From contig NZ_FRAX01000002.1 of NCBI RefSeq assembly GCF_900142465.1, forward strand, positions 248,001 through 312,000: a stretch of DNA of 64,000 nucleotides, in the 5' to 3' direction. The DNA comes from Fibrobacter sp. UWH6. Its GTDB lineage: Bacteria; Fibrobacterota; Fibrobacteria; Fibrobacterales; Fibrobacteraceae. Within the stretch, counting starts at the first letter, position 1. Each line of letters starts with the position of its first letter. The notes beneath the pieces are model-generated. The model was not told the origin of the DNA. It made no database searches and was given only the letters and a program-made list of their open reading frames with translations. The position numbers were made by a program, and so were the translations under genes. Positions 50,611 to 58,515 of the stretch are shown here, in pieces.

Positions 50611-50661
50611 TGTAGTGGGAATATAGAAAACAGAACCGAAAATTTATTGTATATTGGAAAC

Positions 50662-52269
50662 ATGATGAAAATGTTTGGGGCGTTATTTGTTACGTTTGTG
50701 TGCGCGACCCTTATGGGCTGTGGCAGTCACGAACACAAGTATGTGATTGGAATTTCTCAGTGTTCGCTAACGGATTGGCGTTACCAGCTAAAAGATGAGC
50801 TGGTGCTAGCATCCTATTTTAATGAGGATGTGGAAATCCGTATGGCCTTTGCCAACGATGATGATGTACAGCAGAGCCGTCAGATTGATTCTCTTTTGGA
50901 TACAGGATTGGATATCCTGATTGTTTCGCCTAATCAGGTGAAGGGCCTTTCTGGAAGCATGAAGCGGGCCCAGGACATGAAGGTGCCTGTGATCCTTTAT
51001 GACCGCAAGATGAATGACGTGGAATTCGCGGCGTTCATGGGCGCAGACAATTACGCCATCGGAAACATGATGGGGGAGTTTGCGGCGGCTCAGCTGAAGG
51101 GTAAGGGAAACATTGCCGAAATCGGTGGCCTCAAGGGATCCTCGCCGGCTAAGGAACGCCATCAGGGTTTTGCGGATGCCATCAAAAAATATCCGGATCT
51201 GAAAATTGTGGGTTACGCCGAGGGCGACTGGAAGGAAGAATCCGGTGCCAAGGCCATGGAGGAAATCCTCAAGTATTATGATGGCCCCATCGACCTGGTT
51301 TTTGGAGATAACGACCGTATGGCCCTGGGGGCTCGCAAGGTGCTTTCGTCCCGCGAGCAGTCGGACGGTCTGAAAAAAGAAATTCTGTATCTGGGTGTGG
51401 ATGCCCTGCCTATTTCCGATGGCGGTATGGAAAATGTCCGTGATGGTCTGCTGACTGCTTCTGGCATTTACCCCACCTGTGGTGATGAGCTGATTGACCT
51501 TGCCCTGAAGATTCTTCGTGGGGAGCCTTATGAAAAGAACAATGTGCTGGAAACCAGCATTGTTACCAAGGAAAATGCCAATGTTTTGCTGCTTCAATAC
51601 CGCGAAGTCCAAAAAAGGGCGGGCTATATCGCCAAGATGCACAATCTGGTTGGTAAAATCAAGGATGAATCGGAAACTCGAGCCATGCTTAGCATTGCCA
51701 TGTGCCTTTTCACTGGCGTTGTTTTCGTTTTCTTGATCCTGATTATTCATGCAAATCGTGTAAAAGACTGCCTGAATGAGGAACTTCGTCAGAAAAATGA
51801 CGAACTGATCCGCAAAAATGAGGAACTTGATGCTGAAAAGGCCCGTGTGGAACTGCAAAGGGACCAACTTGAGGAACAAAGAGACCAACTTTTGGACGCT
51901 ACGACCCAAACTTTGACTGAAAATCAGCCGGCTGAACCGGAAAAGTCCGCAGAAATCCCTCAAAAGAACGAATTTATGGAGAAATTCCTGTCCTGTGTGG
52001 ATGAAAAGCTGGACAGCCCCACTCTTTCCGTAGAGGATATTAGCCAGGAAATGTGCGTTTCTCGCGTGCAGCTGTACCGCAAGGTGAAAAGTCTGGCCCA
52101 GAAGTCCCCTGTGGAGATTATCCGCGAGCGTCGTCTGCAACGGGCCAGTGAGCTTTTGCAGGATTCGAGCCTCAGTATTTCCGAGGTGGCTTACCGCGTC
52201 GGGTTCTCCGCTCCCTCCTATTTTACCAAGTGCTACAAGGAATTTTTCGGTAAAAATCCCCGTTCCTAG
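50662..52269 (+). CDS. Membrane-anchored sugar-binding/AraC one-component regulator
   Basis: 535 residues from ATG 50662. The start MMKMFGALFVTFVCATLMGC carries a lipobox (LMGC), then a periplasmic-binding-protein domain of the ribose/LacI type (YVIGISQCSLTDWRYQLKDE, ILIVSPNQVKGL, VPVILYDRKMN, IAEIGGLKGS...KERHQGF, DLVFGDNDRMALGA). A membrane helix at about 343-364 (SIAMCLFTGVVFVFLILIIH), a coiled coil to ~415 and a C-terminal AraC DNA-binding domain (VEDISQEMCVSRVQLYRKVK, ISEVAYRVGFSAPSYFTKCY) follow. Thus sugar is sensed outside and DNA bound inside by one chain, without a kinase. A sugar porter follows. Confidence 0.88.
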   Translation: MMKMFGALFVTFVCATLMGCGSHEHKYVIGISQCSLTDWRYQLKDELVLASYFNEDVEIRMAFANDDDVQQSRQIDSLLDTGLDILIVSPNQVKGLSGSMKRAQDMKVPVILYDRKMNDVEFAAFMGADNYAIGNMMGEFAAAQLKGKGNIAEIGGLKGSSPAKERHQGFADAIKKYPDLKIVGYAEGDWKEESGAKAMEEILKYYDGPIDLVFGDNDRMALGARKVLSSREQSDGLKKEILYLGVDALPISDGGMENVRDGLLTASGIYPTCGDELIDLALKILRGEPYEKNNVLETSIVTKENANVLLLQYREVQKRAGYIAKMHNLVGKIKDESETRAMLSIAMCLFTGVVFVFLILIIHANRVKDCLNEELRQKNDELIRKNEELDAEKARVELQRDQLEEQRDQLLDATTQTLTENQPAEPEKSAEIPQKNEFMEKFLSCVDEKLDSPTLSVEDISQEMCVSRVQLYRKVKSLAQKSPVEIIRERRLQRASELLQDSSLSISEVAYRVGFSAPSYFTKCYKEFFGKNPRS

Positions 52270-52286
52270 TGCATAAACAGCAAAAA

Positions 52287-52345
52287 ATGTTACAAAAAGG
52301 CCGAAAAATGTTTCAAGGAAACAAAAGTCCGTGCCTTTGAAACAT
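52287..52345 (+). promoter_or_regulatory. Candidate AraC-type operator half-sites before the sugar porter
   Basis: ATGTTACAA at 52287-52295 and ATGTTTCAA at 52308-52316 are direct repeats spaced exactly 21 bp; TTGAAACAT at 52337-52345 is the exact inverse of the second. 21-bp spaced direct half-sites are the known layout for AraC (araI1/I2). They lie between the fusion regulator stop and the porter ATG 52405. Confidence 0.55.
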
Positions 52346-52404
52346 AATTGATAACGTGACCCCTTGCCTCGGGATAGTTTAAGGGAAAACAAGTGAGGTT
52401 CACC

Positions 52405-53802
52405 ATGGAAAACAGAAAGACATCCAATCTCAAGCACGTTGTGCTGGTTACCCTGTCCGCTGCAATTGGCGGCTTCCTCTTTGGCTTCGACTCCTCCGTG
52501 ATTAACGGTGCAAACGGGGCCCTCAAGGCACACTTTAATGCTACCGACGTCCAGTTGGCTTGGGCTGTGTCCCTGGCTTTGATCGGTGCCGCAGTGGGTG
52601 CCTATTTTGCAGGTCGCCTGGCTGATTCCTTTGGCCGTGTCCGTTGCATGCTGGCTGCTGCCGCCCTCTTCCTGGTCAGTGCCATCGGTTCTGGCGTTCC
52701 TTTTGGAATTCCTGACTTTATTATGTGGCGTGTGATTGGCGGTGTGGGCATCGGCGTTGCAAGTATCATCGCTCCCATCTACATTGCAGAAACTGCTCCC
52801 GCACATCTTCGCGGTCGTCTGGGATCCATGCAGCAGTTCGCTATCGTGATCGGTATCTTTGTGGCTCTGCTTTCCAACTATCTTATCGTGGTGAAGGCTG
52901 GTTCTGCATGTGCTGACTTTATCGGCGGCTGTAAGGCTTGGCAGATCATGTTCTGGGTGGAAGTTATTCCTGCAGCTCTTTATGGTCTCGCAGCCCTCCG
53001 TCTTCCGGAATCTCCCCGCTACCTGGTAAGCAAGGGTCGTCTGGACGAAGCCAAGGAAGTTCTGGCCAAGATTGACTCTGAAGGCGTGGATGCAGAAATC
53101 AACCAGATTCACGAAACTTTCAAGAACGAAAAGCCTGCAAAGCTCAGCGACCTTTTCGAAAAGATTGGCGGCAAGAAGCGCATCGCTCCCATCGTTTGGG
53201 CAGGTCTCGGTCTTGCAGTGCTCCAGCAGTTGGTCGGTATTAACGTCATCTTCTACTACGGCACTATGCTTTGGCAGAGCGTTGGTTTCGGTGAAAGCGA
53301 CGCCTTCCTCACCAGCCTTGTTTCCAGCGGCATCAACCTGACCATGACTATTGCAGCAATCCTCCTGATTGACAAGATTGGCCGTAAGCCGCTCCTCCTC
53401 ATCGGTTCTATCGGCATGGCTGTTACTCTCGGCACTCTCGCCCTCTGCTTCATCTGCGGTGCAGACGCTAGCGGCAGCCTGGTCGGTGCAAGCGGCGTTA
53501 TCGCCCTCATCGCAGCAAACCTCTATGTGACCTTCTTCGCTGCCACTTGGGGCCCGGTCATGTGGGTGATGCTTGGCGAAATGTTCAACAACCGCATCCG
53601 TGCCGTGGCAATCTCCGTGTGCGGCTTGGCTCAGTGGGGCGCAAACTTTGTGGTCAGCTGGTCCTTCCCGGTTCTCACCGGCAAGAATGGAATTGGCGTT
53701 GGCCCCACCTATGTGCTCTACACTCTCTTCGCCACCATCAGCATCTTCTTTGTCGCAAAGTTCATTACTGAAACCAAGGGCAAGACCTTGGAAAGCATGT
53801 AA
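52405..53802 (+). CDS. MFS sugar porter
   Basis: 465 residues from ATG 52405 (GTG 52393 is less likely). Twelve membrane helices with sugar-porter motifs: GGFLFGFDSSVINGA, GRLADSFGRV, RVIGGVGIGVASIIAPIYIA, RLPESPRYL, QQLVGINVIFYYG, DKIGRKPLL and the end TETKGKTLESM. This subfamily (XylE, GalP, Glf) imports hexoses or pentoses by proton symport or facilitated diffusion. It is 135 bp downstream of the sugar-sensing regulator with candidate operators in between, so it is probably its target. The substrate cannot be read from sequence. Confidence 0.92.
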   Translation: MENRKTSNLKHVVLVTLSAAIGGFLFGFDSSVINGANGALKAHFNATDVQLAWAVSLALIGAAVGAYFAGRLADSFGRVRCMLAAAALFLVSAIGSGVPFGIPDFIMWRVIGGVGIGVASIIAPIYIAETAPAHLRGRLGSMQQFAIVIGIFVALLSNYLIVVKAGSACADFIGGCKAWQIMFWVEVIPAALYGLAALRLPESPRYLVSKGRLDEAKEVLAKIDSEGVDAEINQIHETFKNEKPAKLSDLFEKIGGKKRIAPIVWAGLGLAVLQQLVGINVIFYYGTMLWQSVGFGESDAFLTSLVSSGINLTMTIAAILLIDKIGRKPLLLIGSIGMAVTLGTLALCFICGADASGSLVGASGVIALIAANLYVTFFAATWGPVMWVMLGEMFNNRIRAVAISVCGLAQWGANFVVSWSFPVLTGKNGIGVGPTYVLYTLFATISIFFVAKFITETKGKTLESM

Positions 53803-53830
53803 TCAGAAACTCCAATCAGAGTCCTCCTTA

Positions 53831-53866
53831 AAAAGGCCCTCGCATCACATGGTGCGGGGGTCTTTT
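53831..53866 (+). terminator. Terminator of the sugar porter gene
   Basis: A stem of 10-11 bp pairs GGCCCTCGCA with TGCGGGGGTC (two G-U pairs), followed by TTTT. Confidence 0.7.
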
Positions 53867-53930
53867 GGTGTTTTAATTAGTCATCGAAACCCACCTCTGA
53901 ATGAATTAACTTTTTCTATCTTTCTTTCAT

Positions 53931-56245: not shown

Positions 56246-56773
56246 ATGAATAAACTTGTCACACTCACCTTGGCTGCAGCGTCCGCCATCGCCATGAGCG
56301 GCTGCGCTTCCAGTTCATCCATCAAAGTCACGGAGATCAACTCCCTTAACCACGAACAGGCCGCACATCTTCGTGCCAAGGGTGTTGCCAACATGAAGAC
56401 CCTGGGTCCCGTGTTCGTCAAGACCGAAGACCGCTGCTCCCTGGCTGATATTGCCAAGTCCGCCAGCGCCAAGTACAAGAACGTCTCCGACCTGGTGAAC
56501 ATCCGTATGGAAGAAACGGAACAGGTTTCCGGATCAAGCACCACTTATTCCTGCAAGTCCTCTGCACTGGCCGTCAACTACCAGATCGTGACTCCGGAAG
56601 AAGCTAAGCAGTGGCGCGCCCTCTTTGCCGAAAAGAGCGAGACCGTTATTGAAGAAGCTCCGGCAGAAGTCGCACCCACCGCAGTGCCCGAAAATCAGGA
56701 TTACGAAAATACCGAAGCAGCTGAACAGCCTGCAGAAACTGAAGCCGCAACTAACGGTTTCTACGTAAGATAA
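56246..56773 (+). CDS. Lipoprotein, first of a paralogous pair
   Basis: 175 residues; AAAGGA upstream. The signal MNKLVTLTLAAASAIAMSGC gives lipid Cys20. The core DRCSLADIAKSASAKYKNVS and LVNIRMEETEQVSGSSTTYS CKSSALAVNY matches the next gene in the pattern K-x-Y-x4-D-x2-N-x2-MEETE-x3-GS-x2-TYSCK-x-S-x-LA-x2-Y. The two Cys of the core probably form a disulfide. Acidic Pro/Glu-rich C-terminus. No known family recognised; envelope location inferred. Confidence 0.75.
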   Translation: MNKLVTLTLAAASAIAMSGCASSSSIKVTEINSLNHEQAAHLRAKGVANMKTLGPVFVKTEDRCSLADIAKSASAKYKNVSDLVNIRMEETEQVSGSSTTYSCKSSALAVNYQIVTPEEAKQWRALFAEKSETVIEEAPAEVAPTAVPENQDYENTEAAEQPAETEAATNGFYVR

Positions 56774-56794
56774 GACGAAAGGAAGGTATTCACT

Positions 56795-57316
56795 ATGAAA
56801 ATCAAAGCTCTTTTACTCGCTGCTCTCAGCACTCTCATGCTTTCCGGTTGTGCACTGATCAAAAGCAACAACACTAAGGTTATCAGCCCCATCGAACCGG
56901 TAAGCAACGCCGCCTTCGAAGCTTACGGTAACGAACGTATCGATGTTCTGGGCATGGCAGCCACCAAGGCAGACGGTCCCTGCTCCGCTGTGGAATTCTT
57001 CAAGTTCATCACCAAGCTCTACCCCGATGCAGACGACATGATCAACGTCCACATGGAAGAAACCGAAATTACCAAGGGTTCTACCAAGACCTACAGCTGT
57101 AAGTACTCCGGTCTGGCAATCGCCTACACTCCGCTTACCCTCAACGAAAGCATCGCCTGGAAGAAGTCCGAACAGGTTGAAGAGAAGCCTCTTCCCGTAA
57201 AGACCGAAATCAAGGAAGTTCCTGTTCCTGCCTGCACTCCCTGCGCATGCGTTACTTGCGGATGCCAGCCCTGCAGCAACATCAACCCGAACAACTACTA
57301 CAAGCCCGAAAACTAA
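56795..57316 (+). CDS. Lipoprotein, second of a paralogous pair, with Cys-rich tail
   Basis: 173 residues, 21 bp after its paralogue with GAAAGGAAGG upstream. MKIKALLLAALSTLMLSGC gives lipid Cys19. The core GPCSAVEFFKFITKLYPDAD and MINVHMEETEITKGSTKTYS CKYSGLAIAY parallels the preceding gene. The tail CTPCACVTCGCQPC packs six Cys in 14 residues, which could bind metal or form disulfides. The outer-membrane protein gene that follows is 28 bp away, so the three genes may form one envelope unit. Confidence 0.75.
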   Translation: MKIKALLLAALSTLMLSGCALIKSNNTKVISPIEPVSNAAFEAYGNERIDVLGMAATKADGPCSAVEFFKFITKLYPDADDMINVHMEETEITKGSTKTYSCKYSGLAIAYTPLTLNESIAWKKSEQVEEKPLPVKTEIKEVPVPACTPCACVTCGCQPCSNINPNNYYKPEN

Positions 57317-57344: not shown

Positions 57345-58154
57345 ATGTCTAAAAAGATCATCGTTTCTACACTCCTCGGTGCAAGCCTGTCCTTTGCCAC
57401 ATGGGGATACTTCCCTCTGCAGGAATCAGATAAGGGCCTTCAGGTAAAGGCAAGTTTTAACCTCGGCACAGGTGATAACCCCATCGCATTCGGATTGGGA
57501 GCAAGGTATGTTCTTGGATCCTCTTTCGAAATTTCCCTGATGGATATCGGTTTTGTCTCCGGGGATAAAATTCCCCTGGATCTTGAGAGTTATGGCGACA
57601 ACGAACTTCCCACCAACTCCGGATTAATGAATCCCGTCTTGGGCGTCCGTTACCAGTTTACAAGAAAGTTCGGGGCCTTTGTCGACCTGGCCATTCCCTT
57701 TGACTCCCAGGAATTCGCTCCCGGTTACATCTACTTGGGCATTCAAAAAGCCTTTACCCTGAACAGGCATTTTGCATGGGGAAATGAAGTCGGTTACAAA
57801 AGCTTTTTCGCAGTCAGCAGCGAGACTTACTACGGCGACACAGAAGATGTCACAAGGGGATCTCAAGTTTTGGTGGCCACAGAGCTGGACTTCAACAAGA
57901 ATCCTAATTTCATCTGGTTCGTAGGCGGCAAGGTCTCTTGGAACATTTCCGAAACCAATGGCGAAGCTAGAATTGACGGCACCCACAATCTCGGTGAAGA
58001 GGGAGATACGGGTATCGACGTCTTCGCAGGTGCGAGCTACAAAATCAACCCAAACCTCGCCATCGAAGAAGAATTTTCCATGACACTCCTAGGAAGTGGA
58101 GAATTCGACAAGTCCGGCTTGAACTTTAAAACTAGCGCAAAATACGCTTTTTAG
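57345..58154 (+). CDS. Putative outer-membrane beta-barrel protein
   Basis: 269 residues. The signal MSKKIIVSTLLGASLSFA precedes alternating-strand segments (LQVKASFNLGTGDNPIAFGL, FEISLMDIGFVSGD, VLGVRYQFTRKFGAFVDLAI, IEEEFSMTLLGSGEF) ending FKTSAKYAF, the aromatic C-terminus expected for barrels inserted by BamA. No specific family; probably a small porin-like or structural barrel. Its 3' end overlaps the spurious tail of the truncated transposase gene on the other strand. Confidence 0.72.
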   Translation: MSKKIIVSTLLGASLSFATWGYFPLQESDKGLQVKASFNLGTGDNPIAFGLGARYVLGSSFEISLMDIGFVSGDKIPLDLESYGDNELPTNSGLMNPVLGVRYQFTRKFGAFVDLAIPFDSQEFAPGYIYLGIQKAFTLNRHFAWGNEVGYKSFFAVSSETYYGDTEDVTRGSQVLVATELDFNKNPNFIWFVGGKVSWNISETNGEARIDGTHNLGEEGDTGIDVFAGASYKINPNLAIEEEFSMTLLGSGEFDKSGLNFKTSAKYAF

Positions 58155-58515
58155 AAAAAGCCCCCAAAGGCATCATTTTAAAGTAACCTCGACACCAAAA
58201 TACCCTATTCCGGTACTTATTCTGCAATTCCGGGATTATGTCATACAATTCTAGACTGCTCTTGCCCTTTAAATACCCCATGAAACTCGAAACGGAAAGT
58301 TTCGGCGGTATGGCAACCAACATGTGAATGTGATCAGGGCAGACTTCAGCCTCAATTATCTCCACATCTTTCCATTCGCATAATTTTCTAAGAATTCCTC
58401 CCACAAGTTCTCTTTTCTGATTGTAGAGAATCTTCCTTCTGTACTTAGGCGCGAACACAATATGGTACTTGCAATTCCATGTGGTATGAGCAGTCGATTT
58501 ATTTCTATCATTCAT
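58132..58515 (-). pseudogene. tnpA: IS200/IS605 TnpA transposase, C-terminally truncated
   Basis: 127 codons. TAHTTWNCKYHIVFAPKYRR, VEIIEAEVCPDHIHMLVAIP (the HUH metal site), VSSFMGYLKGKSSLELYD and RVFWCRGYF are IS200-type. After GYF (near 58197) the frame runs into the terminal sequence of the neighbouring gene (KMMPLGAFSKKRILR), whereas the family continues with a helix that carries the catalytic Tyr. The active Tyr is therefore missing and the product cannot transpose by itself. Confidence 0.85.

Follow-up and report, generated by a model that had tools for sequence, protein, structure and literature searches.

The gene at 50662..52269 (+ strand) of the window, by which we mean the whole 64,000-nucleotide stretch analysed, encodes a sensor-regulator of 535 aa that starts from the ATG at 50662 (open reading frame and Pfam). 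The chain opens with a lipoprotein-type signal peptide (50662..50721, +) carrying the lipobox LMG-C, and its cysteine (Cys20) is kept in 81 of 81 aligned relatives. A periplasmic sugar-binding domain follows (residues 27-300; 50740..51561, +), in which Pfam places Peripla_BP_4 at residues 57-288 (E 1.7e-42). This domain is two-lobed in an AlphaFold model built from 14 relatives (mean pLDDT 81.6). In the same model, and in agreement with the sequence of the relative L047, residues 303-414 (51568..51903, +) form one unbroken helix that serves as stalk, membrane segment and coiled coil. The single membrane segment lies at about residues 342-364, and the coil part of the helix has lower pLDDT. A short, disordered linker (residues 410-435, pLDDT 33-35) then leads directly to the AraC-type DNA-binding domain (residues 437-535; 51970..52266, +), with HTH_18 at residues 461-534 (E 1.5e-19) and no receiver between coil and AraC domain. 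Pfam finds no HisKA, HATPase_c or Response_reg match in the 535-aa sensor and clear matches in the relative L036; the sensor also lacks an H box.

The initial annotation had described this same succession of lipobox, periplasmic domain, one membrane helix, coil and AraC domain without kinase or receiver, and Pfam, the lipobox alignment and the AlphaFold model confirm it. The "double tether" of lipid anchor and helix that it also mentioned is nothing special to this protein, because the lipobox cysteine is common to all 81 relatives, full hybrid two-component sensors (HTCSs) included. An HTCS shortened by misassembly was rejected as an explanation of the missing parts, because intact kinase-less frames are found in independent Fibrobacter-type assemblies as well as at 24 Bacteroidales loci. 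The sensor is under strong purifying selection (dN/dS 0.08-0.16, with stop-free frames in five copies).

Downstream lies the presumed target gene, an MFS sugar porter of the Sugar_tr/XylE-like type (52405..53802, +), which bears out the earlier assignment of a sugar porter next to the sensor (Pfam Sugar_tr, E 7e-109). It has a dN/dS of 0.03 and is followed by a terminator-like hairpin (53831..53866, +) recognised by sequence scan. A simple scan of the + strand found no consensus promoter 5' of the porter. Porter homologues occur in 89 of 101 Fibrobacteraceae genomes, and the sensor is rare, with four occurrences in 167 Fibrobacterota genomes.

The gap between the two genes holds an array of short repeats. 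Half-site 1, ATGTTACAA (52287..52295, +), and half-site 2, ATGTTTCAA (52308..52316, +), are direct repeats 21 bp apart, and half-site 4 (52337..52345), which reads TTGAAACAT on the + strand and ATGTTTCAA on the - strand, is inverted. All three were found by motif scan, strict pattern and copy alignment at exactly the positions and with exactly the 21-bp direct spacing first reported. Those three are real, and the copy alignment adds a fourth that had been overlooked: a degenerate half-site 3 on the - strand (52316..52324; AGGAAACAA on the + strand), 21 bp before half-site 4. In the alignment most Bacteroidales relatives have GTGAAACAT at this place. Across five copies, variable positions are fewer in the half-sites (2 of 35) than in the spacers (9 of 24; p = 0.0045).

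Significance rests on the spaced arrangement and not on the single half-site. By itself, ATGTTNCAA is modestly enriched in the window (8 found vs 3.0 expected; none of 100 shuffles reaches 8). Matches to the strict pattern of sites 1, 2 and 4 come from 5 loci of the Fibrobacter type and 16 further kinase-less ones, against none in 3 Mb of Markov sequence. At most kinase-less Bacteroidales loci the array lies 3' of the regulator gene, in the intergenic stretch ahead of the next gene (SusC, GH32 or another): WTGTTnCAR is repeated after 21 bp, and two inverted copies start at distances of 29 and 50 bp from the first site. In two members of this set (L110 and L111) the array is absent from the next gap, and the next gene encodes an MFS transporter. 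By these conserved spacings the putative operator has four half-sites, arranged as two 21-bp direct pairs that face each other. The search for further ATGTTnCAA repeats that had been proposed returned a single match of the 21-bp pair in the 3.92-Mb genome, adjoining the sensor, which therefore looks like a local regulator.

Similar pairs can be recognised near proteins that retain the phosphorelay. When the sites were turned into a weight matrix, some of the full HTCS loci also gave pairs spaced at 21 bp; these score as high as 22, and shuffled sequence does not exceed 12. The top-scoring ones stand ahead of GH32, transporter and fructokinase genes, or ahead of SusC. At its middle base the half-site usually has G in the kinase-less Bacteroidales, and A or T in the HTCSs and in the window; alongside this change, by eye, the first recognition helix differs (QLFR vs QLYRK). 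Published HTCS motifs are direct repeats with a period of 20-21 bp, in arrangements of 16+5, 12+9 and 14+6 (PMC3878776).

The closest solved structure to the sensor domain is 2x7x (phmmer E 2.9e-69); its entry reads "sensor protein", and we take it to be the corresponding domain of the Bacteroides thetaiotaomicron fructose HTCS, BT1754. No other HTCS of B. thetaiotaomicron has a sensor of this type, and the sugar that BT1754 senses is fructose (PMC3878776). A scan with one genome per species gave 80 relatives (alignment of 81). Besides near-identical Fibrobacter-type copies, these comprise two kinds. Full HTCSs, about 900 aa long and carrying H and G boxes, come mainly from Bacteroides, Phocaeicola and Prevotella. 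The kinase-less kind consists of 24 Bacteroidales proteins of 490-574 aa, many from Paludibacteraceae of ruminants and horses. The kinase-less Bacteroidales clade matches the window locus in its three-part architecture and, for the most part, in its four-half-site operator, and it is separate in the tree. The AraC domain of the window protein is approximately 50-60% identical to those of its closest full HTCS relatives, and its coiled coil, LNEELRQKNDEL...LEEQRDQLLDA, resembles by eye the L047 coil directly before HisKA, LNKELFQQKQQLEEQRDKLEEQRDQL. By these sequence comparisons the window sensor is an offshoot of the BT1754-type HTCS family of Bacteroidota. The initial annotation had noted that HTCSs of Bacteroides do a similar job with phosphotransfer parts that are absent here; the protein is not an isolated case. 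No record of kinase-less HTCSs was found in the open literature, outside which most subscription papers lie.

The main tree (81 rows, sensor and AraC columns) places the Fibrobacter copies on a long branch with Prevotella proteins (100/99), beside L035 (99/91), and the 24 kinase-less Bacteroidales proteins in another clade (100/100). A constrained tree with a single clade for all kinase-less proteins is rejected (p-AU 0.0097), which makes two or more losses of the phosphorelay probable. The sensor-only tree is concordant, with Fibrobacter again joining Prevotella (95/91). In the AraC-only tree (99 columns), by contrast, the remaining relatives group together to the exclusion of the Fibrobacter domain (93/80); recombination or weak signal must therefore be allowed for, and the history of the Fibrobacter sensor may include recombination. 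We infer that the direction of change was loss of HisKA, HATPase and receiver, since the outgroup consists of AraC domains from other long, kinase-bearing HTCSs. Sensor, HisKA, receiver and AraC parts are present in two proteins of one Prevotellaceae genome, L035 (4953-7265) and L155 (G106 contig 25). HATPase is absent from L035 by Pfam and alignment, and from L155 by alignment, which should make self-phosphorylation impossible. These proteins possibly represent a half-way stage of kinase loss, or possibly act as partners of a kinase in trans.

The fructose HTCSs typified by BT1754 (HTCS_Fru) share with the window sensor the receptor family, lipobox, single membrane helix, coil and AraC domain, as well as 21-bp half-site pairs and control of sugar uptake genes (predicted here). 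The window sensor differs in its length (535 aa vs about 900), in having no HisKA, HATPase or receiver, and in its setting, since it occurs in Fibrobacter beside an MFS porter and without fructan genes. Among the features that define HTCSs, it has the periplasmic sensor with a membrane helix and the C-terminal AraC domain with 20-21 bp repeats; the HisKA/HATPase_c core and the receiver are both missing, and it is therefore not an HTCS. E. coli XylR likewise fuses a periplasmic-binding-protein-like sugar domain to an AraC domain, but XylR is soluble and cytoplasmic, a reading that the signal peptide (lipobox in 81 of 81) and membrane helix rule out here. CadC and ToxR work in a similar way, with one membrane helix linking a periplasmic sensor to a DNA-binding domain. 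Their winged helix is N-terminal and their domain order reversed, whereas the window sensor has an N-terminal signal peptide and a C-terminal AraC domain, and the domains are unrelated. CadC finds its operator at the membrane by diffusion and capture (PMC6320335), and this provides a precedent for the earlier argument that operator DNA must come to a membrane-bound regulator. SusR-like proteins are also membrane proteins with a periplasmic sensor, a cytoplasmic DNA-binding domain, no kinase and direct-repeat operators (PMC3878776). They differ in their sensor domain (here Peripla_BP_4) and in their site spacing, the tandem SusR sites being 67 or 77 bp apart (PMC3878776) and those of the window 21 bp. 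In outline the window protein works like CadC or SusR, yet it is a member of neither family.

W39 and R40, D114 and R115, R166, N217 and D247 of the sensor stand at the contact positions of ribose-binding protein, are therefore putative sugar contacts here, and are common to 2x7x. The periplasmic domain probably binds a monosaccharide, most likely fructose or a related hexose. The XylE-like porter has Ile and Phe at the positions of XylE Gln175 and Leu297, which we take to be the GLUT residues, favouring glucose. Since the putative sensor contacts favour fructose or a close relative and these porter residues glucose, the ligand may be fructose or another hexose. The porter is of the XylE/GLUT type, unlike the fructose transporter of the Bacteroidales loci, and no convincing GH32 was found in the host; together these leave room for a ligand other than fructose. 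Host genes do not name the sugar, because the GH32 matches in Fibrobacter are partial and weak. A related frame of 591 aa (L002; G000:C10:44654-46303) contains two tandem sugar-binding domains, each about 30% identical to that of the sensor.

Sensor, operator, porter and terminator lie within a block (50640..53871, +) that is homologous among loci with unrelated flanks. The block common to the G018, G013, G056 and L033 loci starts at 50639/50640 and ends at 53864/53871, and by this comparison the sensor, operator and porter move together as a 3.2-kb unit. Other genomes carry the unit between a zinc alcohol dehydrogenase gene, which stops about 20 bp short of the sensor, and a truncated copy of that gene, which comes after the porter (L034:3946-4980, L034:8232-8674 and L216:7119-8150 are dehydrogenase entries); in the genome of the window an intact dehydrogenase gene stands alone, about 35 kb away. 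These different arrangements imply that the unit has moved or been reinserted. Flanking repeats considered as a transposon or integron cassette are the dehydrogenase gene and its truncated copy, and that candidate was rejected. For the position that the unit occupies in the window no clean empty site was seen, as none of 29 relatives shows AzlC homology beside YgiQ. The sensor of G056 is split from the porter by an insert or a contig break, and the array stays on the porter side. The two genes sit at contig ends there (L126/L125; contigs 6 and 46) with similar unrelated sequence at both breaks, which suggests a repeated insert between them. The L033 locus comes from a horse faeces MAG titled Bacteroidales bacterium whose contig genes are Fibrobacter-like, and this MAG may be misnamed or chimeric. 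Elsewhere in the window, two neighbouring small lipoprotein genes (56246-57316) are apparent paralogues, and an ORF at 58132-58515 (-) resembles by eye an IS200/IS605-type transposase.

We consider it likely that the sensor acts as a one-component transcription activator tethered to the membrane, that it arose from a BT1754-type HTCS by loss of HisKA, HATPase and receiver, and that it raises transcription of the porter. Periplasmic sugar would close the binding domain, and in response the stalk, membrane helix and coiled coil could reorient or dimerise differently. Two AraC domains might then come into register on the 21-bp-spaced half-sites next to the porter promoter, and porter transcription would rise. 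Ligand, DNA binding, activation as the sign of regulation, and the dimer mechanism are what we infer from the comparisons above. The AraC domain of an HTCS is kept inactive by the receiver as long as the receiver is unphosphorylated (PMC11253607); there is none here, so the window sensor must restrain its AraC domain in some other way, and this is the mechanistic point of greatest interest.

A rival reading is regulated proteolysis: on sugar binding a membrane protease would cleave the protein, releasing a soluble AraC fragment that then occupies the operator. The disordered linker could hold a cleavage site, and the membrane segment and coil evolve faster than the two domains (dN/dS 0.57 vs 0.07 and 0.11, from one sequence pair). 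However, the chain has no known cleavage motif, the linkers of the kinase-less relatives are much shorter at this point, and cutting of the parent HTCSs is not known, so we regard this route as improbable. We are equally doubtful that the protein is a repressor whose sugar-free, tethered AraC dimer blocks the porter promoter from the operator until sugar releases it. Half-site 4 does lie about 60 bp upstream of the porter start, no receiver restrains the DNA-binding domain, and AraC domains that are forced to dimerise are active (a point taken up in PMC11253607); against this, most AraC-type HTCSs activate, and many loci of the family keep the operator ahead of the promoter region.

It is very unlikely that the sites serve another regulator of the porter, with the sensor as a bystander. 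The array is present before every porter of the sensor-bearing loci and absent from all 14 sensor-free Fibrobacter porters with readable upstream DNA, most of which (L131-L143) have a conserved TATTCCAAnTTGGAATA-like palindrome upstream instead; it also recurs beside distant relatives of the sensor. Even harder to credit is a non-functional HTCS remnant with unrelated sites: kinase and receiver are indeed missing, but the five copies are free of stops and constrained as given above, and kinase-less relatives of other lineages keep the operator geometry. The initial proposal, a one-chain transmembrane sensor whose AraC output acts on these sites, remains the best reading and is supported by the comparisons, since the sites track the sensor, resist drift and recur beside distant kinase-less relatives. 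We conclude that the window sensor is a genuine, functional-looking one-component derivative of the fructose HTCSs.

HTCSs govern much of the glycan use of gut Bacteroidota, and the family has been called unique to Bacteroidetes (PMC3878776). The window locus apparently represents an HTCS offshoot that was brought into another phylum with its operator and has put a resident kind of porter gene under its control. We lean slightly towards the broader view that fructose-type HTCSs lost the phosphorelay at least twice, in the Fibrobacter lineage and in rumen/hindgut Bacteroidales, to give one-component regulators in which a 110-residue helix signals to the same operator. In these natural proteins the HTCS sensor, DNA-binding domain and operator are kept, and kinase and receiver are gone. 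Setting them beside full HTCSs on identical DNA would reveal the contribution of phosphorylation and tell whether a tethered AraC pair can be controlled directly by a ligand. If this view is true, such proteins would do without the receiver, supposedly the brake that HTCS DNA-binding domains need in general, and the tether would exert the control in its place.
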